From: Gautieria morchelliformis
Lineage: Eukaryota; Basidiomycota; Agaricomycetes; Gomphales; Gomphaceae
Assembly: GCA_015179125.1 (NCBI GenBank)
Contig: WHVA01000400.1
Location: 1-64,000, forward strand
Length of the DNA stretch: 64,000 nucleotides
Direction of reading: 5' to 3'
Shown here: positions 25,364-61,376 of the stretch, in pieces
How positions within the stretch are numbered: the first letter of the stretch is position 1
Layout of the letters: each line of letters starts with the position of its first letter
Position numbers and translations under genes: made by a program
Notes under the pieces: generated by a model
What the model saw: the letters and a program-made list of their open reading frames with translations, nothing else
Told to the model about the DNA's origin: nothing
The model's database searches: none

Positions 25364-26502
25364 TTACTCCAACATCCTCATATCCTCCACCTCGCTCTCC
25401 TCGCTATCCTTGCCCATCTCATCCTCGTTACTACTACTACTCCACTCCACTAAACCCCCATTTCCTCCATATTCTGCCAAGTCCCTCGCTGCCTGCATCC
25501 ACTTCAAGTAATTCCTCCTCCACCTTATCCGCATGAACTCTACATCTGCCCTGTTTATCCTGTCATTCGCCGCCCTGAACTCCCCCAGCAGCTCGCACAC
25601 TTTCTCCCCAACCTCACCAACCTTCTGTCCCACATCCCTCACCGCCACTATCAGCTCCCTCATCTCCGCACTTCACTCCGACCTTTTGGTCTTCTTGTCC
25701 TTCTTTGGCTTCCGACCCTCCTCCACCTCGGTTTCCTTCCCCTCACTCTGCCTCACTTCCCCAACCTCCCTTTCCTTCCCCTCACTCTGCCTCGCTTCCT
25801 CCATCTCTTTTCCCTTCTCCTCACTCTGCCTTGCTTCCATCCGCTCCACCCTCGCCTCCAAGTTTTGCACGACCCAGTCGCTTGAGTCGCCGTCCTCAAC
25901 CTCGTGCTGAACCTTGGCCTCCTTCTTTGGCCTCGGTCCATCCTCGCTGTCCTCACTCCGTGCACGCTTCCTCCCCTCGCTTGCCTGGCCCTTCCCCATG
26001 TTCGCCTTGCCGCCTCTGCCGCGGCGACTGTGGGCTATACTGCAGCCCAGCGACCGTGTCTGGCGCCATATGCAAGCCGCCCCCCGAGGTCAGTAAGACC
26101 AAAGTCGAGGCTCACGGCGCACAGACATGTGTAATTGCACTCCTTGCAGTGCACACACCTTGCCTCGGCCTTGCTTGCGATCTGCCACTCGTGAGGCCCG
26201 CCGTCGGCAAGCTTGTACCCGTATAGCGACAGGTCAGTCGGGTGGTATGCAAACAGCATACGCTTGCACTATTCAAGTCAGCGACGTTCATCATAAGACC
26301 ACACAACACTCACCTTTTTGCCTTTTGGCCCTTCCTGCCACGGCTCCTGCATATCGATGGCACCATCATCCTCGATGGGCCTCAGAGCAGCCTCGGGCTG
26401 AACCTCGGGCATAACTTCACCCGAGGGGCTGTCCCCCTGAGAGAGCAGAGGTTGGTCGAACACATTGCTGGCAGAGTTGAATAGAGCTTGCGGGCGCACC
26501 AT
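25364..26502 (-). pseudogene. Opposite-strand Cys-cluster gene in Gypsy G1 copy 1
   Basis: Lies between pol and the 3' LTR, antisense to pol. Exon 1 starts at ATG 26502 (MVRPQALFNSASNVFDQ); a 45-nt intron (26269-26313, GTGAGT...AATAG) precedes KRMLFAYHPTDLSLYGYKLA, HEWQIASKAEARC and CVHCKECNYTC. The second half of the Cys cluster is frame-shifted and has lost one Cys. Downstream are a charged region (DGDSSDWVVQNLEARVERME), a repeated EEARQSEGKE motif and a coiled coil (VGQKVGEVGEKVCELLGEFR), ending in an acidic tail at 25364. The same gene occurs in the copies at 59061-60175 and 43322-44664. Function unknown; DNA binding is inferred from the cluster. Confidence 0.75.
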
Positions 26503-26654
26503 ATTCGCTGGCACTTGGTTTTGCCGCCTCCTACCCAGCCTTTTATCTAACCTCGGCTATGATTTAAGCTTCGCCTTTCTGGCTACTTAACATTGGGCCT
26601 GTATCTAGATTCGAGGATAGGCAAACCTTGTTCATATTACCGCCTCGAGGGTCT

Positions 26655-26674
26655 CGGCCATAAGGGGGGAATAC
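26655..26674 (+). other. Polypurine tract of Gypsy G1 copy 1
   Basis: AAGGGGGGAA immediately before the 3' LTR; the equivalent in the other G1 copy is AAGGAGGGGATAC at about 58889-58901 on the minus strand. It primes plus-strand DNA synthesis. Confidence 0.75.
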
Positions 26675-30700: not shown

Positions 30701-32382
30701 GACAAAGCAATCTGTGTTTTTCCCACCCCACCAAGCCCATACAAGACAAAGATGCGCTGTTGCTCCTTAGCAGTGGATGTTTGTTTTGGGAAGAAGTATT
30801 CCTCAAGTTGTGAAAGAATATCACGTCTTCCAGTAAATCTCCGCATTGGTAGAGGACAAGCCTTACGGCGAGCTCTGTGTTTACCTGATAGTCGGCTGAC
30901 AGTGCCTCCGCCTACAGTGTCTACCATACAACATATGTCATCAGCTGGGAGCCATTGCACATTGTACGCACTGAGGTATGCAGAGGGTATCACTTCCCGG
31001 CGCTCCCTGAGAGCAATGGCAGCAGCTGTTACCCTCTCATCTACCGGTGGCCGCCCAAGATAGTGTAATGTTTGCGTTGTCACCTCGGGTGACCTTTCCC
31101 AATCTGCTAATGTTACACTTTCCATTCCCTGCTCCACACTGAACCGGAAGTAGACGTTCGATGCAGATCTAAAGCGCTGCTCGGTTTCCTCCGCTGTTGT
31201 CTCACATTCCGTGGTGATCTTCTTCAATACCTCAGCTACACTTAGTGGTATGATATTATTAAGCAGACCAGATGCCGGCAGGCTGGCAGTGGTGACATGT
31301 CCAGTGCCAATGCTGACAATGCAAGCAATATGTTGAAGAGGAAAGATGTGTTCTGCTTCTTTGAGGATTTGCTTGATCGGATTGTTGCAACCCAGGCCGG
31401 CATCAACAAAGGGTTCACGCGTAGGTGGCTTTCCGATGAAAATCGGTTTGAAAAAAGTAGGGGCGGCAGACGTAGCACGGGCGGCCTCCCATATCGCGCA
31501 GTCGAATGATTCGTATTTGCCGACGCTGTACGTACGAAAGAGGCGGGGTGTGCTGATGTTATTTGCGGGCATCGCGCAAACGAAACTGGGATACGGTCAG
31601 CTATGTACCAAGTCGAGAACGAGCGGCAATGTGAACATACGTTTTGCACACTTCTCTGCTCGACCTTGGGTCGAACATGCGTGCGTCAGGGTCACCAGTC
31701 GATTCCTGGATGATTGCCTTGATAGCGTTCTCCAAATTGCTAGCCTTGAACCTTCCGTCCTTCCAAAATGGTTTCTTCTCCGAGAAGACTTGCTCGGCAA
31801 ACGTGCCATAGGCATCGATCGCTTTATCTATGGGCAGGCGAAGGCGGCCCAGCATGAGTGCTATGAGTCTGCATTGAAAGTATTAGTGAACGAGGGCGAT
31901 CGAGAAGAAAATAACTTACCCGCCTGTACTCGTACCGCAGATCAAGTCGAAATATTCACAAGGAAGGGGGGCGGTGGGTCGCCCTTCTTCGAGCTGGATT
32001 CTTCGCATGATTTCCCGTAGTATGATGAGTTCTGACAAGCCACGGATTCCGCCACCATCTGCTGAGGGAGTTAGAAGGTAGTAGCTAACAGGCATGAAAA
32101 CATTACCGAGTGAAAGCAACCTCAGCCCGGCCCGCTGATGCTGATCGGTTTGCGTCGTGGGGGTAGATTCGATGTCCGTTCTCCCTGCGGCAAGACCAGG
32201 AGTAGACAGTGGTGTGACCTGTTCATAAAGATTCATGAGATAGTCAGTCCCTTTGTTTATTCAGGGGTCACGGAATAAACTTTGCTTACCGTTGACGGTA
32301 CCAAAGACGGCTTTACGATCGGCGGCGTTTCGCCATGCGTGGATGAAGTGGAAGCTTTGGAAATCTGCTGATTATGGTCCAT
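27715..32382 (-). CDS. NLR: patatin phospholipase, NB-ARC, TPR repeats
   Basis: Exons (minus): 32382-32290, 32218-32107, 32058-31920, 31868-31641, 31585-27715; introns of 71, 48, 51 and 55 nt have GT...AG ends and CTRAY-like branch sites, and all join in frame to give 1480 codons. A further 54-nt candidate intron is at 30623-30676. Residues about 64-260 are a patatin-like lipase: DGGGIRG (69-75), nucleophile GTSTGG (Ser112) and DAGLGCNNP (Asp252). An NB-ARC/NTPase follows: P-loop GLGGVGKT (474-481), Walker B LLFLDNADD, GNIIVTSRN, and LGYLALAIVQAGAYI in place of GLPLA. Residues 870-1457 are 14 TPR-like 42-residue repeats. This architecture is known for fungal NOD-like receptors linked to allorecognition and non-self response; ligand and outcome here are unknown. 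ATG chosen because it is the first in frame. The C-terminus stops mid-repeat and may be truncated. Confidence 0.92.
27787..29550 (-). repeat. 14 x 126-bp tandem TPR-coding repeats
   Basis: Fourteen units of 42 codons, each following the scheme MEA[R/S]KRVLGEEHPHTLTAM, then about five variable residues, ATYRSLGQWKDAQELEIKV. Units are nearly identical at DNA level; differences are concentrated at a few codons (R/S after MEA; E/Q/G before IKV; T/N, I/M and N/S in the LTAM block; W/R/Q at TYxS). Kinesin-light-chain-like TPRs form a superhelical binding surface. Such similarity among units implies recent amplification or gene conversion. A divergent unit precedes (RWMDAQELHVKV) and a half unit follows. 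Confidence 0.95.
30623..30676 (-). other. Candidate 54-nt stop-free intron in NLR
   Basis: On the minus strand GTGTTGGAG...TATTTAG with branch-like CGACTAAT. Its length is a multiple of three and it has no stop, so both spliced and unspliced forms stay open. Read through, it adds hydrophobic residues (LSRSVMYRLICFIFS) about 20 residues after the P-loop, where related proteins are compact. I favour removal, but the sequence alone does not decide. Confidence 0.55.
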
Positions 32383-33941: not shown

Positions 33942-34871
33942 GTGCTTTGCGTGTCTTTGCTGTTATATGTACCTATTCATTTGTGGTTAAGAAATAGTGC
34001 CTCTGTCATTGACTGGTCGCAAGAGACTTATTTGTCCCAGACGACAGCACTCAATCCCGAGGAGCATGCGGTCGTTTCGTCCCTTTACACCGATTCCTAT
34101 ATCAGACCGATAATCACGTTGGGCCACTCCTTGGATGCTGCCAATATGAACATGCGCAGGATTCTCGTCTACATCCTGGGCAGCGTGTCGGCGGGCTCGC
34201 TTTGCCTGGCGACCGCAGCTGGGTAGACTGTGCATCCAGTGTCGCAGATCGCCCCGCCGCACCACGGCAAGGGCGTGAACCGTCTATACCTCGACCAATA
34301 CACGAAACTCAACATCTGGACACTGGACTCGATAGGGATCAAAAGCCTCGTATACGTTGACGCGGACACGCTCGTCCGCCGGAATTTTGTCGAGCTGTTC
34401 ACGCTGCCTTATAACTTTGCGGCCGTGCCGGACATCTACCGGGACCACCGCGGGTTTACCGTCGAGTTCAACGCGGGCGTGCTGTTCCTCCGCACGAGCA
34501 CCGCGGTGTTCGAGGACATGCTCTCGAAAATCGGGACGGCGAGGTTCCCGCCGTCGATGGCGGAGCAGGCGTTCCTGAACGCGTATTTCGGGCTGCAGGC
34601 GATCCGGCTGCCGTACGCGTACAACGCCAACATCGCGATAAAGTGGCGGAGCCCGGCGCTCTGGAAGGCGATGGTGGCCGACCTGTGCATTGTGCATTAT
34701 ACGTTGGACAAGCCCTTTCCGCTGCAGGGACAGGGGCGACAGTCGGTGAAGGAGTTTTTTGAGAGCCCGCTGGACCCGGGGAGGGGACTCTGGACGGAGG
34801 AGATAGCGTGGTGGCAGGAATCGTGGCGAGAAACGGCGGCCACATTGAAGAACAAGGCTGCACATTGCTAG
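33942..34871 (+). pseudogene. GT8-family (glycogenin-like) glycosyltransferase, nonsense codon
   Basis: One frame runs from before 34030 to the stop at 34871. Motifs: AVVSSLYTDSYIRPIITLGH near the N-terminus, KGVNRLYLDQYTKLNIW, the metal/nucleotide-binding DxD in LVYVDADTLVRRNF (about 34350), EFNAGVLFLRTS, AEQAFLNAYF, and LCIVHYTLDKPF with the conserved His. These are features of GT8 enzymes that transfer sugar from UDP-sugar. A single TAG (34224-34226) sits where this family has a Trp (AAG-stop-TVHP), so the gene is either a recent pseudogene or a variant allele. The true 5' end is unclear: there is no convincing ATG, a 54-nt GTGAGT...TTAAG intron may lie at about 33936-33990, and a hydrophobic stretch there may be a signal anchor. 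Confidence 0.8.
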
Positions 34872-42427: not shown

Positions 42428-42784
42428 TGTTGGGTGCATATATGCTCCAGCACCAGAATCAAGCCAAACACCTTCCATTATTTGTGTTTCATTCAAATTT
42501 CATTTCAGATCATTCTCCTATGATCACTTCATTTTTTAGAATTTTTCTGAAATTTTCTATCAAGTATGTGTATTTCTATTTCTATTTGTTTTTCTTGTTT
42601 TGCTAGCCGGCTCGCCTACCTTTTGCTTCCGTTGTCCTGACCAGTTGGCTCTGCCGAATGTGGGACCCAAAATGAATTGGCCACTTGCCCTGCCATGGGT
42701 GCTAAAGGGCTGGGTGGTAGTATATGTGAAGTAAGACATGATTTCAACCTCTCTCAGTGACAATTAAATTCACTGAGAGAGGCA
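42428..42784 (+). mobile_element. Partial Copia LTR
   Basis: Begins TGTTGGGTGCATATATGCTC and keeps the CTCTCTCAGTGACAATTAAA / TTCACTGAGAGAG stem at its end (about 42751-42782), but lacks the last ~100-170 bp of the LTR. More diverged than the other Copia LTRs here. Confidence 0.8.
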
Positions 42785-42796
42785 ATGTGTATTGTA

Positions 42797-43189
42797 CTGT
42801 AGTTCAGCTTTACCAAGGCCAAACTTGGGTCACTGGTCAGAGGGCTTGGCTTCAACCTCATGGGTTGCGCCCACTCAGTGTTCCGCCCTAATTTTGGGAG
42901 CAGGGAGGTCTTAAGTATGAGAAACTAATTCAATATCTGAACTGGGGAACTACAATACATGGACTGGAGGTCTATATAGTAAAGTAGTGTGCAGGGTCGC
43001 GAAGAGAATGATCAGATCAACGGACATGGGGACAAAAGGGTCAGGCAAACGGGGAACTAACTAGAAAAGGAAATCAGGGGTGATGGAAGGTGCAAAGGGA
43101 AACCTGAGGAAAGCCAAATAGAACATGAGGTTCCCGAACGAGAACCAAAGCCAAGGCTTCAGGACCGGATTCGGGAACGGATAGTAACA
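42797..43189 (-). repeat. 3' LTR of Gypsy G2 with polypurine tract at 43190-43207
   Basis: On the minus strand TGTTACTATCCGTTCCCGAA begins right after AAGGGGGAGGTAC. Matches the solo LTR 14775-15209. The left limit (42797) is set by that comparison and is approximate. Confidence 0.8.
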
Positions 43190-43321
43190 GTACCTCCCCC
43201 TTATGGCCAAACCCATGAGGCCATAAGTGAGATCCCAGAGATCGCTGGGTTGGGGGGTTATGTAAGCTTTGTTTTGCGTTCTGCTTCTTGTCTTCTCCCA
43301 TTATCATCAGAATTGCGGATC

Positions 43322-44664
43322 ATGTCAGAAACATGTGAGCTTCCCATCGACAAAGTTGACGAGCTTGACGCTGAGCTCGCACAAGCTGAGCGCGAGGCCA
43401 ACAAGCGATGGAAAGCTCTTCAAGAATGACAATGACTTGCGCAAGAGGGCAAGGAAGCTGTGGAGAAGAAACAGTGAGAGGACAAAGAAAAAGCCAAGGT
43501 GGAATGGAAGGAGTGGGAGGCACAGGCCAAAGCTGCGCGACAACCCAAGGAGGCACAAAAAGCCAAGGAAGCTTGGAAGGCTTCTGAGGTGTGGGAGGCG
43601 GAGAAGAAAGCCCTAAAGGCAAAAGCCAACGAGGCTCCGAAGGCATGGGGGCCAGCATTCGAACATGAGCGACAGCGACTTCTCATTATATTGGAAGCTG
43701 AAATGATCCAACAAGCCGATGTGAATCAAAATTATCACATCCCGTCACCCAAGCCAGTGATTGTGGATTTGGCCACCGGGCAGGCTCAGTTTTTGGCGGC
43801 AAAACGTGCAGTGGAAAGAAATGCAGCTAAGGCAAAGCCGAAAGCCTTGGGAACAAAAAGGAAAGCAACCAAGGAGTCAGATGAGGAGGAGTCGGATGAA
43901 AATGTAAGTACTCGGGTCGGGTCAGTTCGGTTGGACTTATGCTTTTTTGTTCAGCATGAACCTTGCGACACTTGCAGGCGTCGCCACACCCGGTGTCTGA
44001 GCGGAAAGAAAACTGCATGCCAGCAGTGCATGGACTGGAAAGTCTGGTGCAGTTTCCTGGATGGGAAACGGAAATGAAAGGATGAGGAGGGAACCGAAGG
44101 GCCGGGGCCGAAGAAGGCCAAGGTGGCTTCGGTCAAGCTGTTGGGAGTCATACTGATGATTGACATCTGTGCTGGGCCATCGGGAGCAGGGATTAAGGGT
44201 TTGAAACCCGTCGGATATTCCTGAGCCAAGGTTTGCGGTATGCTGAGGAACTTGCTGTCCCAGCAGAACCAGCAACTGGAGCGGAGCAATCACCTGCTCT
44301 GGGGTGTACTCGGCTTTGTGCAGCAGATCGAGCAGCACAATTCATGGATGAACAAGCGGCTGCACTTGTGGACCAGAGTGGCTGAGAATGCTGCCTTGTG
44401 GTTGGGTTTGGTTCGGGTTGGGGCAGGTTTGATTTGGCTGGGGGTTCAGGTTTGGGTTTGGGAAGTGTGGAGAAAGGGAAGGAGGCAGAGGGAAAAGAAA
44501 AGGGAAAAGAAAAAGAAACAGAGATAGAGGAAAGATCAGAGACGGGTTTGGGTTTGGAGGATGGGGACGAGGATGTGGGAAAGACGGGGGATGGGGATTC
44601 GAAAGATGAGCAGGCTGACGGGCAAAGGGATGTGGATGAGGATGCTACAATGGAAGATAATTAA
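43322..44664 (+). pseudogene. Opposite-strand Zn2Cys6-like gene in Gypsy G2
   Basis: ATG at 43322 opens a frame rich in Ala, Lys, Glu and Trp (coiled-coil-like, KEWEAQAKAARQPKEAQKAK) with three in-frame TGA codons before 43499. It then reads cleanly to a 51-nt intron (43904-43954, GTAAGT...TTCAG, stop-free) placed just before the Cys cluster. The cluster is C-x2-C-x6-C-x7-C-x2-C-x6-C (CDTCRRRHTRC, then CQQCMDWKVWC), exactly the spacing of fungal Zn2Cys6 DNA-binding domains. TGA at 44075-44077, then a KKAK basic motif, a second coiled coil (LSQQNQQLERSNHLLWGVLG) and an acidic tail ending EDATMEDN at 44664. Likely a decayed nuclear protein gene of the element; the function is inferred only from the cluster. 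Confidence 0.75.
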
Positions 44665-44884: not shown

Positions 44885-45183
44885 CGGGAGAGCCAAAGCT
44901 TGGGTTCTGGTCCAGGCTTGGCAGGGTAGGCTGAGTGAAAGTCAGTCATTATCTCGGCCGCGTGGCCAAGCTCAGTCGCAAGGACCCATGACGTCTCTTC
45001 ATCGGTACCTTCATAACCAGCCCAATGGACAAGGTACAGGAGGTTACAGGGTCTACGTCGTCGGTCGATCTTGGAATCAAGAATATCTGAAATCTTGTAC
45101 TCTGTCTTGCCCTCGATTTCGACTGGAGGTGGCGTAGACTGAACCCAGTTCAGAATGGTGTTCGGGATTGTGGGTTTGAGCAT
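44885..45183 (-). pseudogene. Gypsy G2 chromodomain
   Basis: KISDILDSKIDRRRRPCNLL, YLVHWAGYEGTDEETSWVLA and ELGHAAEIMTDFHSAYP. The aromatic cage positions Y, W and Y/W are kept. It forms the C-terminal end of the integrase in chromoviruses and guides integration to heterochromatin. Confidence 0.88.
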
Positions 45184-46880
45184 GGAGACGTGAAAGACCG
45201 GGTGGACTGCCCGAAGGCTATCTGGGAGGTGTAGAATGTAAGCTCAGGATCTGGCCTGGCCTATAATCTCAAAGGGACTGAGGTACTTCTCAGCCAGCTT
45301 CTTTGAGGGCTGGGTTGTCCGGAAGAACTGCGCGTTTACAAAAATGGAGGAACCTATCATGAACTTGGGAGCGGGAGCGTGACGCGCATCGGCCGAGACC
45401 TGATACCAAGATTAAGTAGATTTGATTTGCTCTTTCAAGGCAGTGTGAAGCTTGTCAAGGTCAACTGTGAAGTCTCAGGCTCGGGAGGATGCGAGGTCCC
45501 GTTTGGGGTGAACCGTGAGGTTTGGGTTGTATCCCTTGTTGGCAAAGAAGGGTGATATGCCGGTAGTTGCACTGGGAGCATTGTTGTACAAAAACTCGGC
45601 GAGTGGTAGCAACTCGGAACAATTGTCCTGTTGGTAGTTGCAGTACACACGAAGATACTGTTCCAGAGTTTGGTTTACACGTTCTGTTTGACCATCGCCT
45701 TTGGGATGATATCCCGAGGTGAAATGTGGTTTCATGTCGAGGGCCTTACCAAGGGAACGGAAAAAGTGAGAGACGAATTCCGTGTTGGAAATGCTGAGGA
45801 AATACAATGTCAACACAGTGATCATAACAACACAACCCCAAACTGAGACCAACTCACCGATATTCTTCCGAACGCATACACATTACAACGACTTATGCCC
45901 AAGATCACCGAACTCACACCTGCCCACTCAATACAACCCAATTCACGCCCCCGACCGTTCCAATATCACAGGAACACACACCATATGCCACTGTAGTCTA
46001 GAACACCCCTAAAGACCCTTCCCAAGCACGCCGAGCCCGACTCAAATGGTAAACACCCCATAATCACATGACCCAATCAAGGGACGCGACGCGACGAGCC
46101 GACCCTGCCCATAGTTAGATCACGCCCCTATCCATTCCCAAAGACCGTTCCCTTTCTCTATTTTACACTTCACACCCCAACCCAACTTGTATAACACCCG
46201 TCAACACTCCTATCAACGGCTATGCGCCGCTCCCCCATCCCACCTTTTCTTTGTTCCTATTCCATGAACGTTATGACCGCCAAGCACTAGCACCAACTAA
46301 TAAATAGCTAGTCTCATGTACCATAAAGAAGCAGCAAAATCCTATTCCATTTTGCTCTACATTTTTTACAATAGTTAAACTCTCATCAACATATATCATA
46401 AGACGCACATATATAATTGTGTGTGCAGATATTCTTACTAGCTTTGATTCCTACTCGATTTATCTCACATTCAGGGATTAAATCACATCATTTTCGATAT
46501 CATTTACAATACTAACAAGATTCCGAACCTCGGTTGGATGTCACATGGCTAGGGACACAGTGCTTTGAGAATACATGCAAGACAAACAGGCAGGCGAGGT
46601 CTGCGGATGTGACCGCATTGTAAGTCGGGATGAATATGCTCTGCTTGGTTAAGCGACAAACTATTACAAGGATTGCAGTGAATCCTGAAGACACCCACAA
46701 CTGCTCAATGAAATCCATGGAGATGGAATTCCAAGGTTGCTCGGGTATCGGAAGTTGCTGTAGGGAGCTGTAAGGCCGATGACGCTGTGACTTTGAATGC
46801 AAGCAAGTAGTGCAGGACTTCTTGTTAGTATCGATATTAGTATTGATAGAAATATGATTCAATCTCTGAATGTGAGACAA
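45184..46880 (-). pseudogene. Gypsy G2 integrase, interrupted
   Basis: Minus-strand pieces: TTCLHSKSQRHRPYSSLQQL, SISMDFIEQLWVSSGFTAIL and FSKHCVPSHVTSNRGSE (46880-46526; the second core Asp is changed to Asn in TSNRG), then after the insert HFFRSLGKALDMKPHFTSGY, GDGQTERVNQTLEQYL (Glu) and FLYNNAPSATTGISPFFANK (45782-45475), with further linker frames to 45190. The H2C2 zinc part and all upstream domains are gone. Confidence 0.85.
45783..46520 (-). mobile_element. L6 LTR-like repeat, 738 bp, with TSD
   Basis: Inserted in the integrase with a 5-bp duplication TTCCG (45778-45782, 46521-46525); excision restores the coding line (RGSEF...). On the minus strand it starts TCTTGTTAGTATTG and ends GCATTTCCAACA. 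A related copy in opposite orientation is at 46823. No ORF. Confidence 0.82.
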
Positions 46881-48895: not shown

Positions 48896-50346
48896 TGTAG
48901 TTTGGCAGTCACATGAAGGATCACATGACTCATTTGTCAGCTTTGGAGGTCTAAGAAAAAACATTGCACTGCTACTCCTAGGCCCTCCTACCCCTTCTGC
49001 TTCTCAGAATAGTTATATTTGAACAATCTGAGCCACAAGATGGGCTGAAAATATAAAGATAAGGCTTTTCAACTCCACAATCTCAAATCTGCATGTCCAA
49101 GGCCACCAAAGGCTGCAGTCATGGTTGCAGAGGATTCAGAGGATTCAGATGATGAGTACATACCTTCCGTTGATGGGCACACTTCACATGCAGCTGAATG
49201 AGAGCATGATGCTTCTAGATGGCTTCCAGTGCTTGGAGATGAAGGATTTATTATGGGGGCAGAAGACGAAGATGAAGCGAGGTCAGAAGATGAAGCGCTG
49301 AAGATGAAATACATATGGACACTGAGCTATTGATCTTTGCAGAAACACTGCAGAGGGCTCATGATGCTGCTGCTGCTGCTGAAGGAGAGAGACAAAAGAA
49401 GAGAAAGTGGTCAAGACACTACACTGGGAATTCAGTGAGGTTGAAACAACAGTGGGCTGCAAAAAGAAAAGACATAACCTATGCAGGGAATAAACTAACT
49501 CTCAAAAACAAATAGAACTGTCATGGTAGCTGGAGACATTGCAGAACTCAGGTCAGATCCTTCAGCGGCCAAAGAGCATGCAGTGGAGACTCAGGTAGGC
49601 TGTTTGATTCACTGTTGATTTAAATTATCACCTGAATGCCTGCTTAGCCCGCTGTTACTGCCACAACTGTCGAGGAAAGTGCACCTTGGCGAAGTGCGGG
49701 CAACTAAGAGTCTCAGGAAGATGCCAAGACCAGAAATACAGCTGAAGCACAGATAAACAGTGCAGATGCTGCACAAAAAATAAAACCTACAAAATGAGAG
49801 CCTGCCAAATGCCACAGACAGGGCACTGGGTAGCCTTAACTGGTGTGATTTCCCTGCACTGTGTCAAGCACAATCAAAGCTCACAGTGGTTAGTAAATAT
49901 AAGAAACTAGATGTGTTCTTCTGGAGCTGAAACACCACAATGGTTAGTACTCTGAACCTGTACCTTGACCCTGAGCTTTTGTTTTCATGGTGCGAAGCAT
50001 CACTTGCTTCCAAAGCAGCAGGTAAGGGAAATCAACATGCATGAGCTCTGCGTTCATGGATCCACCAGTTTCTGGCCAGTGGCAAACTGCCAGTGCATTG
50101 GTGTGGTCGGCGTAGTTGTTCAGTTCTGGAGGATGAAGACTTGTCCCAGGCAATTCAGCTACACATGCAGTCAATTGCAAAGGAAGGTTACATACAAGCA
50201 CACAATGTTGTTGATTATATGGCCACCTCAGAGATGCAGGAATGACTTGGTGACAAACAAACCTAAAACCAGCCTCTCAATGGCACGGTGGTGGTTGCAC
50301 AAACTTGATTGGCGGTTTTCAAGGAAACCAAATGGGATGTATATTG
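48896..50346 (+). mobile_element. TA-target DDE transposon, 5' half, cut by Copia
   Basis: Plus-strand counterpart of 37691-39480 (shared LIFAETLQRAHDAAAAAEGE, QQWAAKRKDITYAG, MARWWLHKLDWRFSRKPNGM). The terminal inverted repeat is missing on the left. The right end stops in the YI of GMYI, where the Copia 5' LTR begins at 50347; the remainder is not found after the 3' LTR. Confidence 0.8.
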
Positions 50347-50844
50347 TGTTGGGTGCATTTATGCTCCTGCACCAAAATCAAGCATAATATATCCAATTTG
50401 TTGTGTGGCCTTCCAATTTCTTCTCACATTGTTCTTGTATTATGCATCCATTTCTCTGGTTATTTTCGAAATTTTCCACTCATTCCTTATCTCTCTATTT
50501 CATCTTGTTATCCCTACTTTCACAAGCGGCTGCACCCAGCGGAGTCTGAAATGACTTCGACGCGCGAGCTCTTGGGCGCTAAAGGGCCGGGTAGTAGTAC
50601 ATGCGCAGTGGAACACATTTCCCCCTCTCTCAGTGACCACTAAATTCACTGAGAGAGGCAAGTAAATTAGTCTAGTGTTCTTTGCATTTATTGACCTAGA
50701 AATGCTCTGTAGTGAATTGATTTCTAGGTAGTGTATAATATATTTATAGTGACCACTAAATTCACTGAGAGAGTGAATTGATTTCTAGTCTATTCTTTTG
50801 AATAACAAGTCCATACCTACTGCCTATAATTCCTGTCCTCTACA
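50347..50844 (+). repeat. Copia 5' LTR
   Basis: TGTTGGGTGC...CCTCTACA. Contains the stem CTCTCTCAGTGA/TCACTGAGAGAG (about 50624-50656). A 61-bp duplicated block (about 50725-50785) repeats TCACTGAGAGAG and GAATTGATTTCTAG and is absent from the 451-bp LTR at 4130. Confidence 0.95.
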
Positions 50845-50858
50845 GGGTTATGGGCCCC
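50845..50858 (+). other. Copia primer-binding site (half initiator tRNA-Met)
   Basis: GGGTTATGGGCCCC directly after the LTR is complementary to the anticodon stem-loop of initiator tRNA-Met (which contains GGGCCCAUAACCC) rather than to a tRNA 3' end. Drosophila copia is known to prime from an internal fragment of this tRNA. The ATG of the gag frame (50850-50852) lies inside the site, opposite the CAU anticodon. Confidence 0.75.
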
Positions 50859-53800
50859 GGAGACACTTCTGAGAAGCTATTGGGTGTTGAGAAGCTTGCT
50901 ACTGATGGTAGTAATTGGCCACTGTGGCGAGCCACTCTCATCAGCTATTTCGAGTCCAAAAATCTACTCAAGCATGTAGAAGGGAGAGTCACTCGACCTC
51001 CTGATCCTCCAGTTATGCCCCCAGGCCATATTCTAACAGAAGCTGAGGAAACTCAGATGGATAAGGCCGAGGAGAAGCTGGAGAGATACCTTGCTAGAGA
51101 AGGACAAGCCAAGACCCAAATCATCGTCTCAGTGTCAGAGTCATTAGCCCTGATGCTACAGAAGCAGAAGACAGCAAAAGAGACTTGGGATGCACTGGTC
51201 AATGAAATGACCAAAAAGCCCAAGATGGTCCTCACCAGCCTGCAGAGACAACTCCGCAGTATGAGATGTCCTGAGGATGGAGACTTGAGAGATCACTTGG
51301 ACAAGGCCCAAGACCTATATGCTCGTCTTAATGAGATGGGGGCTAGAGTTTCTGAAGAAGAATTCATGGACATAATCCTTGCGTCACTTCCACCATCCTA
51401 TGAGGCAGTCATGAATGCCCTTACAACTTCGCTTGAAGAATGCGGGATGCCATTGGTCCCTGATAATATTATTAGGGTACTAAAGGCTCAGTATGACAGG
51501 AAGAAAACACTCCCGCAAGAAGAGCAGGTGTTTATTGGTTCATCTACTAAGAAGGACCAGAAGGGGCAGAAGGCGCATGTATGCACCAACTGCAAAAAGC
51601 CTGGACATTCCATCGAAAATTGCTGGGCTAAAGGAGGTGGTAAAGAAGGTCAAGGACCACGTCAGAAGAAGAAAGCCAAAGGCAAGAAGAAGAAGAAGGG
51701 TAAAGCAAAAGCGAATGTTGCCGAAGAAGAGTCTACTTCTGAGGAAAGTGGTGATGGGCATCTTGCCTTCACCAATTTCGACGAGTGCTCTAATTTCAAT
51801 TTGAGCACATCCTCAGGAGTTATAGTTATACTCGACACCGGAACGACATCGCATATGACTCCTCACAAAAATTTATTGAGGAACTACTGTCAATTCTCAC
51901 AGCCGAGGACTATCCGAGCAGCCAACAAAGGTACCTTTGATGCCTTCGGCTCAGGACTGCTCGTATTATCCAATAAGGTTGGAGATAGAACAGTAGAAGT
52001 CACGTTGCAAGATACATACTATGCACCCAAAATTGCTGCTACCCTCGTCTCGATCGGTCGGTGCGATGATGCTGGCTACGACATTCGACTCGGTGGCCAG
52101 AAATGCACAATATCTAACGCTACTGGAAAGGTATTGATGCAAGCACCGAAAGTCAATGGCTTATATCGACTAGACCTCCAGTCACCAAGTGCTCAAGCCC
52201 ATATGTGTTTATCTGCCATGGAAATTCATCAAAAGATGGGGCACATCTCGCAGAAGTCCCTACAACATCTATTAAATCATGGCATGATATTGGGCATTGA
52301 ACTGAGCTCCACAGGCGATAGAATTGTCTGTGATGCGTGTATTCAGGCCAAGATTGCGCGCAAACCTCTTCCTCGAGAACCCAGAGACCGAACATCAAAA
52401 TTCGGTGACAGAATTTATTCTGATGTCTGGGGACCTGCAAGACACCTCACGATCGATAAGAAGTCATATTATGTCTCCTTTATCGATGACTACTCAAGAG
52501 AATCGGTGATCTATCTCATGGCGAACAAATCAGAAGCATTCTCAAAGTACAAGCTCTACGAGGCTTTAATGCTTCGACAGAGAAATGTGCACATCAAGGC
52601 ACTTGTTTCTGATCGAGGGGGCGAGTATACGAGCTCTGAATTCGAACAGCATCTAGCCAAACAAGGCACGAAGCATCAGTTGACGGTACACGACACACCA
52701 GAGTCCAATGGTGTTGCGGAACACCTGAACCGAACTCTCACTGAGAGAACTCGTGCCATGCTGCTAGAATCAGGTCTTCCTAAGATATTATGGGGCTATG
52801 CGATACAGCATGCCAATTATCTTAGGAACAGGACGCATACAAGAGCTCTACCAGATAAAACACCCTACGAGATGATTCACCATGAAAAACCGAATCTCAA
52901 AGACATTCACGCGTGGGGAACTGAAATTTACGTTAAAATCACTCAGGGAGATAAATTGGCAGCTCGTGCCAAGAGAGCTCGGTGGATAGGAATTTCTGCG
53001 CAGAGCCATGGTCATTATGTTTATTGGCCTGACTCGCACAAAGTTTCTGTCGAGCGGAACGTTGTCTTTGATTCAGAAATGAAGAAGGGAAAGGTCCCAA
53101 TCATTTCTATTGAGGAATCCAAGCTACCTACGTCTAAAGAAGAGAAGAAGCCATTCCGGCATCAGTGCCTGTGCCCGGTCGCTTAGTCAGCGAAGAGGCA
53201 AAGATCGAAGAAATTGATGAAAGTGCACCGGAAGAATATCTTGAAAAGCTGCAACCTATTCAGGGAGTTGATGACAGACCTAGAGAAGCTGAACCGATAA
53301 GGAGAAGCGAAAGGATCCGTCAACAACAAGTGCAGCCGGCCCCATCAGGTCCCGTGACAAGATCTCAAACTCAGAGACAAACTGGCGCACATATGACTAC
53401 GCTAGCTTACGAGGACGTTGAGGACCATGAAGAAGTTTTATTCGACCAAGAATTATCCTCCGAGATTGATGGCATCAGTAGCTATGAGTGTGCCATCAGT
53501 GCGTTTCTAACCGACGGTCAAAACAAAACAAGGCGCCGGATTTGAGTCAAATTGAACCTAGCAATGCAGACGAAGCTCTGAATAATCCTATGTGGAAGAA
53601 ATCAATGGACAAAGAGTATGAGGCCCTAATCGACAAGGGAGTGTGGGAAAGAACCAAACCACCTCCTGGAGCCAACATTGTCGGCAACAAATGGGTCTAC
53701 CTTTGGAAGCGTAATCCAGAAGGGAAACCAATAGTACCTAAATCGAGAATGGTCGCCCAAGGCTTCACGCAGAAGTTTGGAATCGACTATGATGAGACAT

Positions 53801-55092
53801 ACTCACCTGTTGCTCGGTTATCCTCCCTACGGATCATATGCGCCATTGCTGCTAGGAATGACTGGCCTATTCATCAAATGGACGTGGACTATGCATACCT
53901 CAATGCTAAGTTGCCCGAACCTATTTACATGAAGCAGCCGTATGGATATGAGTCAGGAGACAAAGGCGAAGTGCTACTTTTGAAGAAAGCACTCTACGGC
54001 CTCAAGCAATCTGGAAGAGAATGGTACAAACGTCTAAGTGGTGAATTCCACAAGTTAGGATTCACTACGTCAGCCACAGACGGGGCTGTATTTTATAGAC
54101 GTGGCGGAAAGGGGCATGTGATCATTGCAACAGCTGTGGACGACCTTACCATCACAGCTGAGAATCAATCAGTCCTGGACGAAGTCAAACGAGATCTTGC
54201 TCAGGTCTTCAGTATGAAAGATCTAGGCGAGATTCATTGGCTATTGAATCTCAAAATCGAAAGAGACTGGCAGAAGAAGACCATTGCAATTTCACAACCT
54301 GCATACATCGAGAAGATCATCAAAAAATTTAATCTCGAAGATGCAAAGACTTATGCTACGCCTCTTGATCCAGCCGTAAAATTATCTAAAGACCAATGTC
54401 CTTCTACAGAGAGAGGCAAGAAAGCCATGTCGAAGTTTCCATACAGGCAAGCTATAGGATCACTGATGTGGGCGGCTGTAGCCACTCGACCTGACATTGC
54501 ATTTGCGGTGTCATTACTCTCGCAATTCCTTGAAAATCCAGGTGGCACACACTGGAATGCAGTCAAACGTGTCTTCAAATATTTGAAAGGCACGAAGCAT
54601 TACAAGCTCACACTTGGAAGAAATCAAGACGGCTTGATGGGGTATTCAGATGCGGATTGGGGTTCACAGAGTCATAGGCGTTCGTATTCGGCATACTTAT
54701 TTCAGATTGATGGAGGCACTGTTTCATGGAGTTGCCAGAAACAGTCGATAGTAGCCCTCTCATCAACTGAAGCCGAATTCGTCGCCCTGACCCATGCGGG
54801 CAAAGAGGCTCTTTGGATGCGCCATTTTATTTCTGAAATATTCCAACCACTGAACAGACCCATCCAAGTTTATTCAGACAATCAATCAGCCATTGCCATC
54901 ACGTATGGCACCCAACAACACACGAGAACCAAGCATTTCGACATCAGGTTATATTTCCTCCGAGATATAATCAAAAATCAACAAGCCAAGCTCGTTTATT
55001 TGCCAACCGAACAAATGTTGGCAGATATCCTCACTAAAGGACTTCCTAGTCCTAGAGTGAAGATTCTCAACGAGCAAATCGGAATATATTAA
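50850..55092 (+). pseudogene. Copia gag-pol polyprotein with two frame breaks
   Basis: Frame 1 (50850-53186): gag with a UBN2-like domain, basic linker and zinc knuckle CTNCKKPGHSIENC; protease VILDTGTTSHMT; integrase zinc region HQKMGH...CDACIQAK; core YSDVWGP (Asp), VSDRGGEY (Asp), ESNGVAEHLNRTL (Glu). Frame 2 (53165-53545): linker with RRSERIRQQ. Frame 3 (53488-55092): RT (NKWVYLWKRNPEGKPIVPKS, MDVDYAYLNAKL, ALYGLKQSGREWY, catalytic AVDDLTI) and RNase H (YSDADWG, SSTEAEFVAL, VYSDNQSA, TRTKHFDIR). Each break is explained by loss of a single base (near 53158 and near 53525), the second in an A-rich run. Everything else is intact, so the copy was functional until recently. The catalytic box reads AVDD rather than YVDD. 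Confidence 0.92.
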
Positions 55093-55105
55093 GCTTGAGG
55101 GGGCG
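55093..55105 (+). other. Copia polypurine tract
   Basis: TTGAGGGGGCG immediately before the 3' LTR. Confidence 0.7.
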
Positions 55106-55603
55106 TGTTGGGTGCATTTATGCTCCTGCACCAAAATCAAGCATAATATATCCAATTTGTTGTGTGGCCTTCCAATTTCTTCTCACATTGTTCTTGTATT
55201 ATGCATCCATTTCTCTGGTTATTTTCGAAATTTTCCACTCATTCCTTATCTCTCTATTTCATCTTGTTATTCCTACTTTCACAAGCGGCTGCACCCAGCG
55301 GAGTCTGAAATGACTTCGACGCGCGAGCTCTTGGGCGCTAAAGGGCCGGGTAGTAGTACATGCGCAGTGGAACACATTTCCCCCTCTCTCAGTGACCACT
55401 AAATTCACTGAGAGAGGCAAGTAAATTAGTCTAGTAGTCTTTGCATTTATTGACCTAGAAATGCTCTGTAGTGAATTGATTTCTAGGTAGTGTATAATAT
55501 ATTTATAGTGACCACTAAATTCACTGAGAGAGTGAATTGATTTCTAGTCTATTCTTTTGAATAACAAGTCCATACCTACTGCCTATAATTCCTGTCCTCT
55601 ACA
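55106..55603 (+). repeat. Copia 3' LTR
   Basis: 498 bp, the same as the 5' LTR except for one C/T change and a 2-base change near the middle. Ends CCTCTACA at 55603. Confidence 0.95.
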
Positions 55604-56394
55604 GTTCCTCCTCTGCGCAGTCCGTGATTCTCGCATTTATACCCTTCTCCCACCCCCAACAGGCCATTGTACATTCTCCCTGCATCTGGGAGTCTGTCAG
55701 GGAATGCGGGTGCCTGGAACACACGGGCCACACGCCCCTGTACCACATCACCTCTTGGAACGTGTCCAACACGTCACTGCTTCCCCATGCTCATTTCCAA
55801 AGAAAAGCACTTCCCCGCTCGATCAACTCGCTCTAGCACCTAACATGGCAGTTTATATGACGATCATGATCCAAGTGATCAATCAACTGTGGATCATGAT
55901 ATACCCATTTAGGGTCGATTCACATCAAGCGCAGGCCGCTTCGCTGGCACGCCACACCACAAGACACACATCAATTTGGGAAGCAGAAGCCCCGAAGCTT
56001 GCAAGCACGAGAAGCATGTATAGCTCGAAGCGCTCACAGTAGATACGTTATAGAGGTTTGTAGTTCAATGTCCTGACAGCAATGAGAGTCACTGTCCTAA
56101 ATACACATTCTATCCTAATTGTATTAAGTTCCTTGTTCTATAGTTCCTTGTATCTTACTGCACTCCTTTGCCCATTCTCTCTTTTGTGTCCTATACGCGT
56201 CATTGGCACATGCATCATCGGCTTACATTAGCAGACCGAAGTGCCGCATCCATGCCGTACCGTCCTTTACTCAACAGTGTGCGCAATCTTCGTTTCTATT
56301 CTTGGCACCCGGCAGCACATGGTGCCCCATTATGCTCAATTTGGTTACGACCCATCACACATGGCGGTGTAGCTAGTATGAGAAAAGGTGCCCC
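55604..56394. other. Unassigned sequence right of Copia element
   Basis: Does not continue the DDE transposon that is cut on the left side of the Copia element. A few short open frames, no recognised domains or repeats. An imperfect ATGATCC-rich stretch lies near 55860-55905. Confidence 0.5.
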
Positions 56395-58888: not shown

Positions 58889-59060
58889 GTATCCCCTCCT
58901 TATGGCCGAGACCCCCGAGGCCGTAATGTGAACAAGGTTCGCCTATCCTCGAATCTAGATCCCGGCCCGATGTTAAGTAGCCGGAAAGGCGAAGCTTAAA
59001 TCGTAGCCGAGGTTAGATAAAAGGGTGGGTAGGAGGCAGCGAACCCAAGTGCCAACGAAT

Positions 59061-60175
59061 ATGGTGCGCCCGCAACCCCTCTTCAACTCAGCCGTCGACG
59101 AGAACAGCGCGAACAATGCGTTTGACCAGACATTGCTGTCTGAGGAGAACGGAGCCTTGGGCGAGGTTATGCCCGAGGATCGACACAAGGTTGGCACATT
59201 GCCAGTTGATGAGACGGGGGCCATCGACATGCGGCAGCCGTGGCAGGAAGGGCCGAATGGTAAAAAGGTGAGTCGTTGAGTAGTATCGTTTTTGCTGTTC
59301 GCTGACTTGAGTAGTACAAGCGAATGTTATTCTCGTACCACCCGACCGACTTGTCCCCATACAGGTACAAGCTCGCCGACGGGGGACCTCGTGAGTGGCA
59401 ACTCGCGACCAAGGCCGAGGCGAGGTGCACGCGCTGTGAAGAGCACGACTATACGTGCCTTCGGGCCGTTAGTCTCGACTTCGGGCTCGCCGACCAGGGT
59501 GCCTGCGTGTGGTGCAGGACACGCTCCTTGGGCTGTAGCATAGCCCAAGGTCGCCGCAGTAAGGCGTCCTTAGGAAAAGGTCAGGCGGGTGCCGGGGGCA
59601 AGAAGCGAGCGAGGAGCGAGGAGGCCGAGGAAAGAGGCCAAGGTTCGGGACGAGGTTGAGGATGACAACGACTCGAGCGACTGGGTCGAGCGGAATCTCG
59701 AGACGAGGGTTGAGAGGATGGAAGCGAGGATGAGCCAGGAGAAGGGTAAGGGGACAGAGGGAGCGAGGCAGAGTGAGGGGAAGGAAACCGAGGTGGAAGG
59801 TCGGAGGGCGAAGAAAGACAAGAAGGTGAAAAGGTCGGAGCGAAGTGCGGAGATGAGGGAGTTGATAGCGGTGGTGAGGGACGTGGGACAGAAGGTTGGC
59901 GAGGTTGGGGAGAGGGTGTGCGAGTTGCTGGGGAGAGGGTGTGCGAGTTGCTGGGGGAGTTTAGGGCTGCGAATGACCGGATGAACAGGGCGGATGTGGA
60001 GTTCATGAGAATAAGGAGGAGGCGGAATTACTTGAAGCGGATGCAGGGGGCGAGAGACTTGGCCGATTATGGGGGACATGGGGGTCTGGTGGAGCGAAGT
60101 AGCAGTAGTAATGAGGAGGAGTCAGGCGAGGGTAGCGAGGAGAGCGAGGGAGAGGATATGAGGATGGTGGAATAA
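59061..60175 (+). pseudogene. Opposite-strand Cys-cluster gene in Gypsy G1 copy 2
   Basis: ATG 59061 (MVRPQPLFNSAVDENSANNA); intron 59268-59314 (47 nt, GTGAGT...GAGTAG, branch CTGAC); exon 2 YKRMLFSYHPTDLSPYRYKL then the full cluster C-x2-C-x6-C (CTRCEEHDYTC), 15 residues, C-x2-C-x6-C (CVWCRTRSLGC). It then has a KKRAR-type basic motif, a frame break near 59610, SSDWVERNLETRVERMEARM, SEGKETEVEGRRAKKDKKVK, coiled coil VGQKVGEVGERVCELLG, and an acidic tail ending at 60175. A 23-bp tandem duplication near 59916-59957 shifts the frame again. Same layout as in the other two Gypsy copies; function unknown. Confidence 0.8.
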
Positions 60176-60293: not shown

Positions 60294-61376
60294 TCATAGA
60301 GAAGTCAAAGGTCCTGGCTTGGCCGGGTAAGATTCGTGGAAGTCAGTGACCAGCTCCGAGGCATGATCAAGCTTGGAAGCGAGGATCCACGAGGTTTCTT
60401 CGTCGGTACCTTCGTAACCAGTCCACCTAACAAGATAGAGTAACTTGCAGCTCTTGCGTCTATTATCGATCTTCGAGTCGAGGATTTCGGAAACCTCGAA
60501 CTCGGGTTCACCATCGATAATGACTGGGGGCGGAGGCGGCTGAACTCGGTTCGGGATGGTGTTGGGTGAGGCTGGTTCGAGCATAGATACGTGGAATACT
60601 GGATGGACTGAATGCATGTGTTCTGGAAGTCGAAGGGTGAATGGGTGAGTACCCGCTCGGGAAATGATCTCAAACGGTCCCAAGAACTTCTCGGCGAGTT
60701 TTTTGGTAGGGTGAGTCATTCTGAAGTACTGTGCCTTCACAAAGGCGAGGGATCCCACTTGGAAATCAGGAGCGGGCTTGCGGCGAACATCGGCCGAGGC
60801 TTGGTAGGTCTTCTGAGCCTCGAGGATGGCGCGGCGAAGTTCTTGGTGAAGCTCGTCCAGGTCAACCACAAAGTCTCGAGCTCGTGCCGAGGTGAGGTCA
60901 CGCTCGGGGTGAACTGCGAGGTTCGGATGGTAACCCTTATTAGCAAAGAATGGGGAGATACCGGTGGTTGCGCTAGGCGCGTTGTTGTAGGCGAACTCGG
61001 CTAGGGGAAGGAGCGAAGCCCAATTGGACTGCTGATAGTTGCAATATATCCTGAGGTACTGTTCCAAGGTCTGGTTAGCACGCTCGGTTTGACCGTCACC
61101 CTCGGGATGATATCCCGAGGTGAAATGCAACCGCATGTCCAATGCTTTCCCTAGGGAACGCCAGAAGTGCGAGACGAACTCGGAACCCCTGTCCGAGGTG
61201 ATGTGCGAGGGGACTCCATGCTTGGAAAAGACATGAAGGACGAAGAGGTGAGCGAGCTCTTGCGAGGTTATCTTGTCTGTGGTTGGATTGAAGATAACCT
61301 GCTTAGTGAAGTGGTCAACAATCACTAGGATGGAGGTGAACTCGGATGAAGGGGGAAGCTGCTCAATGAAATCCAT
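60294..61376 (-). CDS. Gypsy G1 copy 2 integrase core and chromodomain (intact ORF)
   Basis: A 360-codon uninterrupted frame: MDFIEQLPPSSEFTSILVIV (first Asp in VDHF), FSKHGVPSHITSDRGSEFVS (second Asp), GDGQTERANQTLEQYLRIYC (Glu), FAYNNAPSATTGISPFFANK, KLAEKFLGPFEIISRAGTHP (GPF/Y module), then chromodomain FEVSEILDSKIDNRRKSCKL, YLVRWTGYEGTDEETSWILA. The integrase catalytic triad and chromodomain aromatics are all present. It is separated from the zinc-binding part upstream by a stop near 61455, so the whole polyprotein is not continuous. Confidence 0.9.
   Translation of the reverse strand: MDFIEQLPPSSEFTSILVIVDHFTKQVIFNPTTDKITSQELAHLFVLHVFSKHGVPSHITSDRGSEFVSHFWRSLGKALDMRLHFTSGYHPEGDGQTERANQTLEQYLRIYCNYQQSNWASLLPLAEFAYNNAPSATTGISPFFANKGYHPNLAVHPERDLTSARARDFVVDLDELHQELRRAILEAQKTYQASADVRRKPAPDFQVGSLAFVKAQYFRMTHPTKKLAEKFLGPFEIISRAGTHPFTLRLPEHMHSVHPVFHVSMLEPASPNTIPNRVQPPPPPVIIDGEPEFEVSEILDSKIDNRRKSCKLLYLVRWTGYEGTDEETSWILASKLDHASELVTDFHESYPAKPGPLTSL

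Follow-up and report, generated by a model that had tools for sequence, protein, structure and literature searches.

Antisense genes of chromodomain Gypsy elements in the window

The window (the whole analysed stretch of 64,000 nucleotides from Gautieria morchelliformis) holds three Gypsy copies with a chromodomain, two of family G1 and one of family G2, each of which carries a gene on the strand opposite to pol. The genes and their surroundings are laid out as follows.

G2 copy
43322..44664, + strand: antisense gene, from ATG to stop (coordinates verified)
43322..43903, + strand: exon 1, 582 nt, a long Ala/Glu/Lys-rich N-terminal region; three in-frame stops here
43904..43954, + strand: intron, 51 nt, phase 0, GTAAGT...CAG
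43955..44664, + strand: exon 2 with the zinc cluster, a basic KKAKV motif, a helix-like region and an acidic tail
43964..44050, + strand: cluster C-x2-C-x6-C-x7-C-x2-C-x6-C (PF00172, 22.8 bits; PUT3 and LAC9 in the PDB)
43201..43226, no strand: inverted repeat TTATGGCC-N10-GGCCATAA in the interval from LTR/polypurine tract to ATG
42702..43189, - strand: 3' LTR, outer end approximate (from the limit of inter-copy similarity and the position of the polypurine tract)
44908..45243, - strand: chromodomain end of pol (tblastn)

G1 copy 2
59061..60175, + strand: antisense gene
59061..59267, + strand: exon 1, 207 nt
59268..59314, + strand: intron, 47 nt, GTGAGT...TAG, phase 0
59315..60175, + strand: exon 2, frame broken past the cluster
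59426..59536, + strand: cluster C-x2-C-x6-C-x15-C-x2-C-x6-C (partial, sub-threshold Pfam match, 13.4 bits)
58900..58926, no strand: inverted repeat TTATGGCC-N11-GGCCGTAA, arms matching at 7/8 positions
60294..61376, - strand: pol with integrase core, SH3_Tf2-1 and chromodomain (Pfam)

G1 copy 1
26502 to 25364, - strand: antisense gene
26314..26502, - strand: exon 1
26269..26313, - strand: intron, 45 nt
25364..26268, - strand: exon 2, with a frame change inside the cluster and the fifth Cys lost
26637..26663, no strand: inverted repeat, one arm changed further

The positions of the three genes, the intron lengths of 51, 45 and 47 nt, and the cysteine spacings of G2 and of G1 copy 2 had all been given correctly in an earlier note on this DNA. 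Its placement of the genes in the slot between chromodomain and 3' LTR likewise holds, with the opposite-strand pol chromodomain found at 44908-45243 and within 60294-61376 (Chromo, 7.4e-08). The common layout that it had drawn needs some correction. A short first exon is a feature of G1 (207 nt) and not of G2 (582 nt), and the intron does precede the cysteine cluster in both families, but by 37 codons before the first Cys in G1 and by only 3 in G2. The charged, coiled-coil-like stretch, said to follow the cluster, lies in exon 1 of G2, upstream of the cluster.

All three copies are broken: the G2 copy by five in-frame stops and a frame change (two of the stops and the frame change falling in exon 2), G1 copy 1 by the frame change in the cluster and the missing fifth cysteine, and G1 copy 2 by a frame change downstream of the cluster. 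The reality of the gene can thus not be demonstrated from the window alone.

Copies and gene model in the genome

The Gautieria morchelliformis assembly (G000; 122 Mb in 1113 contigs) was used as search space and yielded at least 151 matches to the G2 protein (150 of 363 first-look candidates scored) and at least 150 to the G1 protein (150 of 377 candidates scored). The matched stretch is free of stops in 139 of the 150 G1 matches listed, and 25 of those listed share an identical score and identity (210.8 bits, 91 %), as would follow from a recent spread; this points to G1 elements having recently multiplied with the frame open.

Gene models were obtained for 27 of 28 G1 loci, with an exon 1 of 207 nt in 22 and a frame change in exon 1 in three. 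Their predicted introns begin with GTGAGT (once with GTAAGT), end in AG, measure 46-48 nt and lie in phase 0. At 17 of the 28 loci, the gene encodes at least 340 aa without interruption, a proportion that is not to be read as a frequency, because 20 of these loci were hand-picked for long open frames and a spread of identities. For G2, the window copy was joined by 40 further loci, taken from the 41 places that ranked next (one lay close to the end of a contig and was skipped), the near-duplicate loci L030/L031 and L037/L038 being retained; 36 of these 41 loci were modelled, including one spurious model (L049) that was dropped from later tests. Only three of the 36 models (L019, L020, L025) are open to the shared C-terminus, so that the majority of G2 copies are dead. 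Introns with a GTRAG start are present in 32 of the 36 and measure 46-60 nt. Since 24 of 27 G1 and 15 of 32 G2 introns have a length not divisible by three, splicing alone gives the downstream frame in those copies.

The gene appears to start just inside the 3' LTR and to carry one small intron, and its predicted product of about 350-435 aa has a six-cysteine cluster, stretches rich in Lys/Arg and helix-like parts, and ends in an acidic tail; among the last 40 residues, 13 and 17 are Asp/Glu in three G1 and three G2 copies, respectively.

The G2 introns have some peculiarities of their own. Their identity (0.76) is as high as that of the exons (0.70 and 0.71), an ACTTATG motif resembling a branch site occurs in 23 of 32, and CGG-N2-CGG is found in 17 of 32 as TCGG(G/T) repeats, for example, at 43904-43954. 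The latter was discarded as evidence, as the copies share ancestry and count as one observation.

Selection on the antisense frame

In a reference-anchored codon comparison that included broken copies, the median pairwise NG86 dN/dS of the antisense frame was 0.213 for G1 (26 copies, 325 pairs) and 0.218 for G2 (35 copies, 583 of 595 pairs), where copy pairs are not independent and G2 dS (median 1.13) is close to saturation. The G1 window copy (L009) and the unmodelled L061 were excluded, as were L049 and the five unmodelled G2 loci. The other two forward frames gave 1.11 and 1.24 in G1 and 0.93 and 0.97 in G2. On the opposite strand, two of three frames ranged from 0.92 to 1.60; the third had 0.38 and 0.36, low values that are to be expected of a frame sharing its third codon positions with the gene. 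Both exons contribute, with values for exon 1 and exon 2 of 0.24 and 0.19 in G1 and of 0.21 in either exon of G2, and the 17 intact G1 copies alone gave 0.23. For comparison, the chromodomain end of G2 pol had a dN/dS of 0.34 (28 of the 36 loci, 8 being left out; 375 pairs), and the antisense gene thus looks at least as constrained as that pol end.

These comparisons between copies show an antisense frame that behaves, with its predicted splice, as coding and as subject to purifying selection in G1 and in G2. The earlier note had suggested selection as the reason for the retention of the gene and had named a dN/dS near 1 with no spliced antisense transcripts as the mark of a chance ORF; the value of about 0.2, confined to this frame while the other forward frames lie near 1, bears out the former. 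Loss of the cluster in relatives was to be the other such mark, and the cluster cysteines are in fact retained in 155 of 156 codons in G1 and 202 of 210 in G2.

The six-cysteine cluster

The retention just given covers the six cluster cysteines in 26 G1 and 35 G2 copies, at mean column identities of 86 % and 66 %, respectively. The sole cysteine of the reference outside the cluster is retained in 22 % of G2 copies and in 96 % of G1 copies, which makes cysteine retention less telling in the young G1 family.

Proteins with a Zn2Cys6 cluster follow the spacing C-x2-C-x6-C-x(5-12)-C-x2-C-x(6-8)-C. The x7 loop of G2, in the window and in the other copies, and that of a third subfamily described below fall within this range; the 15-residue loop of G1 falls outside, and the G1 cluster has acidic residues where the classical one has basic ones. 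The profile PF00172 (Zn_clus; gathering cut-off 21 bits) gave scores on both sides of its cut-off. It matches the G2 cluster of the window above the cut-off at 22.8 bits and G2 exon-2 proteins at E <1 in seven of nine cases (best 3.6e-4), and gives scores below the cut-off for L002 (18.0 bits), L008 (14.1), L020 (18.3) and L082 (18.7). None of 16 G1 members is recognised, the G1 copy of the window reaching a partial, sub-threshold 13.4 bits. The canonical Zn2Cys6 spacing, which the earlier note had described for G2, is upheld for G2 and extends to the third subfamily, and the search against PF00172 that it had proposed succeeded for the G2 copy of the window and gave nothing above 21 bits for G1.

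In the PDB, a 40-residue piece of G2 found PUT3 (E 0.0017) and LAC9 (E 0.45) as the sole chains up to E 10. With a profile built from the complete exon 2 of G2, eight chains came up, none significant (best E 0.53), with PUT3 at E 5.9 and 6.8 behind unrelated chains, and no Zn2Cys6 chain was among the G1 matches. Pfam scans of the antisense proteins found no regulatory domain of fungal transcription factors, and single-sequence structure models were of low confidence (pLDDT 67.5 and 42). A relationship of the G2 and third-subfamily cluster to fungal Zn2Cys6 factors is supported, and binding of zinc and DNA would be expected from it.

A third subfamily and the question of common origin

Searches of a protein database with the antisense proteins found only two proteins, P0001 and P0002, both from Gautieria (in one search, the best 8000 candidates were scored), and scans of IMG/VR found no relatives. 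P0002 was recovered in a profile search and is 41 % identical to G2 over 60 %; genes of its type have 146 matches in the assembly. P0002 itself is missing the fourth Cys and matches nothing in Pfam (E up to 1). An open copy of this third subfamily (L082), however, retains all six Cys in G2 spacing, with a Zn_clus score somewhat below the cut-off (see above) and a 47-nt intron at the place of the G2 intron. Moreover, residues 91-195 and 194-307 of P0002 match (85 % and 73 %) the sequences flanking a 47-nt gap on contig C649, which is consistent with the public gene model of P0002 using the same splice. The third subfamily, assigned by the antisense gene alone, hence shares the predicted architecture of cluster and intron.

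Whether G1 and G2 derive their antisense proteins from the same source is less clear. Their profiles align at the cluster only (37 columns, 35 % identity, E 0.0022, probability 13 %), and adding the third subfamily changed this little (38 columns, E 0.0027, probability 11 %); P0002 against the G1 profile gave E 0.044. In shuffle tests with six pairs, the stretch behind the cluster reached p <= 2/500 in four pairs and failed in two, and the full exon 2 gave 0/500 in one of six. These alignments are suggestive of a common origin and leave it unproved.

The second database protein, P0001 (residues 27-258; G000:C170:55543-56349), joins the C-terminus of the G1 antisense protein to another multicopy protein, which recurs at other genomic places with 42-68 % identity.

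Linkage to pol and a family without the gene

Behind the antisense gene, a chromodomain on the opposite strand was present in 26 of 27 G1 and 29 of 36 G2 models, the loci having been found via the antisense gene. G1 pol exceeds the Pfam cut-offs for rve, SH3_Tf2-1 and Chromo, and the G2 chromodomain is recognised by similarity, which places both among the chromoviruses. At their chromodomain ends, G1 and G2 share 77 % identity with each other and 36-41 % with another chromodomain family, which looks numerous from its many equal scores (150 of 3407 SH3_Tf2-1 candidates scored). In this other family, tblastn found no G1- or G2-like antisense gene at any of the four top loci (L078-L081). At L078, L079 and L081, the pol frame continues directly into a stretch that is common to these loci and resembles an LTR; at L080, the chromodomain itself is interrupted. 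Carrying the gene is thus no general trait of the chromodomain Gypsies in this genome: the statement of the earlier note that such elements carry it applies to G1 and G2, and four out of four loci read from one seemingly numerous family, one of them truncated, have no gene like that of G1 or G2.

Outside pol, the G1 and G2 elements of the window share no DNA match. Within G2, 21 elements (of the 36 loci) were compared pairwise along their length. The median identity rises from about 0.5 in the LTR to 0.68-0.76 across the antisense gene and 0.81 in the spacer that follows, and reaches 0.83-0.89 over the next 600 nt, which hold the pol end; further into pol the alignment degrades (0.51-0.79), and poor alignment also lowers the LTR values. 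Distances in antisense exons 1 and 2 are well correlated (Spearman 0.87), those in exon 2 and pol hardly (0.26). This divergence of the antisense gene and LTR, far beyond that of the pol end, suggests recombination or homogenisation of pol between element subfamilies; recombination that homogenises pol or a faster change of the antisense part would each fit. The median dS in G2 (loci among L001 and L018-L056) was 1.13 in the antisense gene and 0.29 in the adjacent pol end.

A co-evolution of the LTR with the antisense gene was also considered and is not claimed, because the LTR distance in G2 tracks pol (Spearman 0.54) more closely than antisense exon 2 (0.34), with LTR distances that saturate.

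A candidate site beside the gene

An inverted repeat, TTATGGCC-N10/11-GGCC(A/G)TAA, is common to G1 and G2 in the interval from the polypurine tract to the ATG. Searched for with a tolerant pattern, it is present in all seven G1 loci that include this flank, 18 of 36 G2 loci and none of four loci of the family without the gene; both arms are exact in 12 of the 36 G2 loci, where copies are older and often truncated. The repeat may be a regulatory site or a part of the plus-strand priming region; it adjoins the polypurine tract and may have been kept for priming.

The LTRs themselves were searched for CGG motifs in 16 stretches (seven G1, eight G2 and one from the family without the gene) against dinucleotide shuffles. 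Single CGG/CCG triplets were within about 2 SD of the shuffles, all eight G2 stretches lying slightly over the mean. Pairs of the form CGG-N3-CGG were raised in seven of eight G2 and six of seven G1 LTRs, but also in the LTR without the gene (8 against 0.9 expected), and CGG enrichment was for this reason rejected as a sign of Zn2Cys6 binding. As the pairs are not specific to gene-bearing LTRs, the simplest version of a regulator acting on its own LTR is weakened.

Known counterparts

Antisense genes are already known in fungal Gypsy elements, and the Gautieria gene is a further one, with a zinc cluster. The gene brtn of Boty-like elements in Botrytis cinerea and Sclerotinia (Zhao et al. 2011, Virology, as cited in PMC7264820, PMC8365987, PMC4227169 and PMC5987419) is likewise an extra antisense gene in the slot from pol to 3' LTR of a fungal Gypsy with a chromodomain gag-pol. 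It differs in its ascomycete host, and the comparison with the Gautieria gene is one of descriptions, not of sequences. The passages that cite brtn in PMC7264820, PMC8365987 and PMC4227169 make no statement of a zinc cluster. The earlier note, which knew of no described fungal counterpart with a zinc cluster, stands in so far as none was found in these sources, while a fungal antisense gene as such, brtn, had been published. A figure legend in a further paper on fungal chromodomain Gypsies (PMC2864245) points out, in some element, an extra ORF to which no function is assigned; the text of that paper does not mention antisense or zinc. Among the matches listed, the open-licence literature contained no description of an antisense gene of the Zn2Cys6 type encoded by a retrotransposon.

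In plants, the Retand, Grande and RIRE2 elements are described as carrying an antisense ORF (aORF) between pol and 3' LTR, which in 97 % of Retand clusters is of the TRP28 type and for which DNA binding and a regulatory role have been proposed (PMC11963269, PMC7264820). The shared trait is the antisense gene in this interval. The Retand elements, however, are not chromoviruses and have TRP28 (PF04195), whereas the Gautieria gene has a Zn2Cys6-type cluster and a small intron; accordingly, Pfam scans of the Gautieria antisense proteins found no PF04195.

With PUT3 and the LAC9/GAL4 class, the protein shares the Cys spacing, the CxxCRRR..RC start and what lies behind the cluster, namely a basic and a helix-like region and then an acidic tail. 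Unlike these factors, it is encoded on the minus strand of a retrotransposon, and its cluster either sits mid-protein after a long charged N-terminus (G2) or has the 15-residue loop (G1).

HBZ of HTLV-1 is a bZIP protein, whereas the Gautieria protein has a zinc cluster, and no relation in sequence is claimed. What HBZ and retroviral antisense genes have in common with it, as they are described, is a start at or near the 3' LTR and, for the product, a role as nuclear regulator (PMC11963269, PMC7264820).

Proposed function

We consider it somewhat better than an even bet (roughly 55 %) that the antisense gene encodes an element-borne transcriptional regulator of the Zn2Cys6 type that acts on the element itself. 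This lineage of chromodomain Gypsies carries the accessory gene on the minus strand, in the slot from pol to the 3' LTR, and its product may enter the nucleus by virtue of its basic KKAKV-type motifs, dimerise and bind DNA by its zinc cluster, much as Zn2Cys6 factors do, and tune transcription of the element by means of its acidic tail. The target would most likely be the LTR or leader of the element, with the inverted repeat beside the gene's own ATG as the closest candidate for a binding site. Functionally, such a protein would be an analogue of the antisense genes of the plant Retand and Grande elements and of retroviral antisense regulators.

The strongest competitor, which we regard as rather unlikely, is a post-transcriptional role as a nucleic-acid-binding factor for particle assembly, nuclear import or, together with the chromodomain of the integrase, the choice of integration sites. 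Strongly basic stretches next to a Cys cluster could well bind RNA or cDNA, a chromodomain integrase is already part of the element, and the G1 cluster deviates from the classical DNA-binding form. G2 and the third subfamily, however, have the exact Zn2Cys6 spacing, PUT3 and LAC9 are the only PDB relatives of the G2 piece, and a spliced mRNA from the opposite strand would be an odd route to a virion component.

That the protein acts on host genes or on host silencing (e.g., as a repressor or as a decoy of chromatin-silencing factors) and not on its own LTR seems improbable to us. An acidic tail with a zinc cluster would suit any transcriptional role, and gene-bearing LTRs have no CGG enrichment beyond that of the LTR without the gene; yet the conserved inverted repeat beside the gene offers a target in cis. 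Still less credit is due to the antisense transcript as the functional product, acting through dsRNA/siRNA or by interference with the sense RNA, with the protein being secondary. The 3' part of the genomic RNA would have its complement in such a transcript, and the possibility is raised in a plant review (PMC7264820), but the dN/dS of 0.21-0.22 and the retention of the cysteines (155/156 and 202/210) indicate selection on the protein. Finally, a functionless chance or hitch-hiking ORF, which the damage to all three window copies and to most G2 copies might have suggested, is effectively refuted by the frame-specific dN/dS of about 0.2 in two diverged families with broken copies included, by the six retained Cys and the same cluster and intron in the third subfamily, and by the three opposite-strand frames, which are interrupted by 3-10 stops in every one of the 17 intact G1 copies and by 1-11 in three copies of G2.

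Returning to the regulator of the element itself, one may tentatively go a step further, with more doubt than confidence: a retrotransposon lineage may have co-opted the Zn2Cys6 fold, a hallmark of regulators in the kingdom of its host, as a self-contained antisense cassette, consisting of the 3' LTR, the inverted-repeat site and the spliced regulator, that diversifies largely independently of pol. If so, elements would differ in their regulator and yet share a nearly common pol. Antisense accessory genes of Gypsy elements have been known before; here, one comes with a domain of DNA-binding type, predicted splicing, selection over dozens of copies and a candidate site, so that the function of such genes becomes directly testable in a fungus with simple reporters. 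Mushroom genomes may also obtain lineage-specific Zn2Cys6-like genes from such elements.

Other features of the window

The remainder of the window includes a gene on the minus strand at 27715-31572 that resembles NLRs, with patatin, NB-ARC-like and TPR parts. It has many similar TPR repeats of 126 nt, the DNA identity of which (82-91 % in self-comparison) is a sign of recent repeat expansion, and its mirror frame gives rise to a spurious ORF of 505 aa. A glycosyltransferase family 8 gene (34230-34871, + strand) lies amid transposons. At 50346-55604 (+ strand), a young Copia element is flanked by LTRs (50346-50845 and 55105-55604) that are 99.4 % identical, with its gag-pol split over two ORFs.
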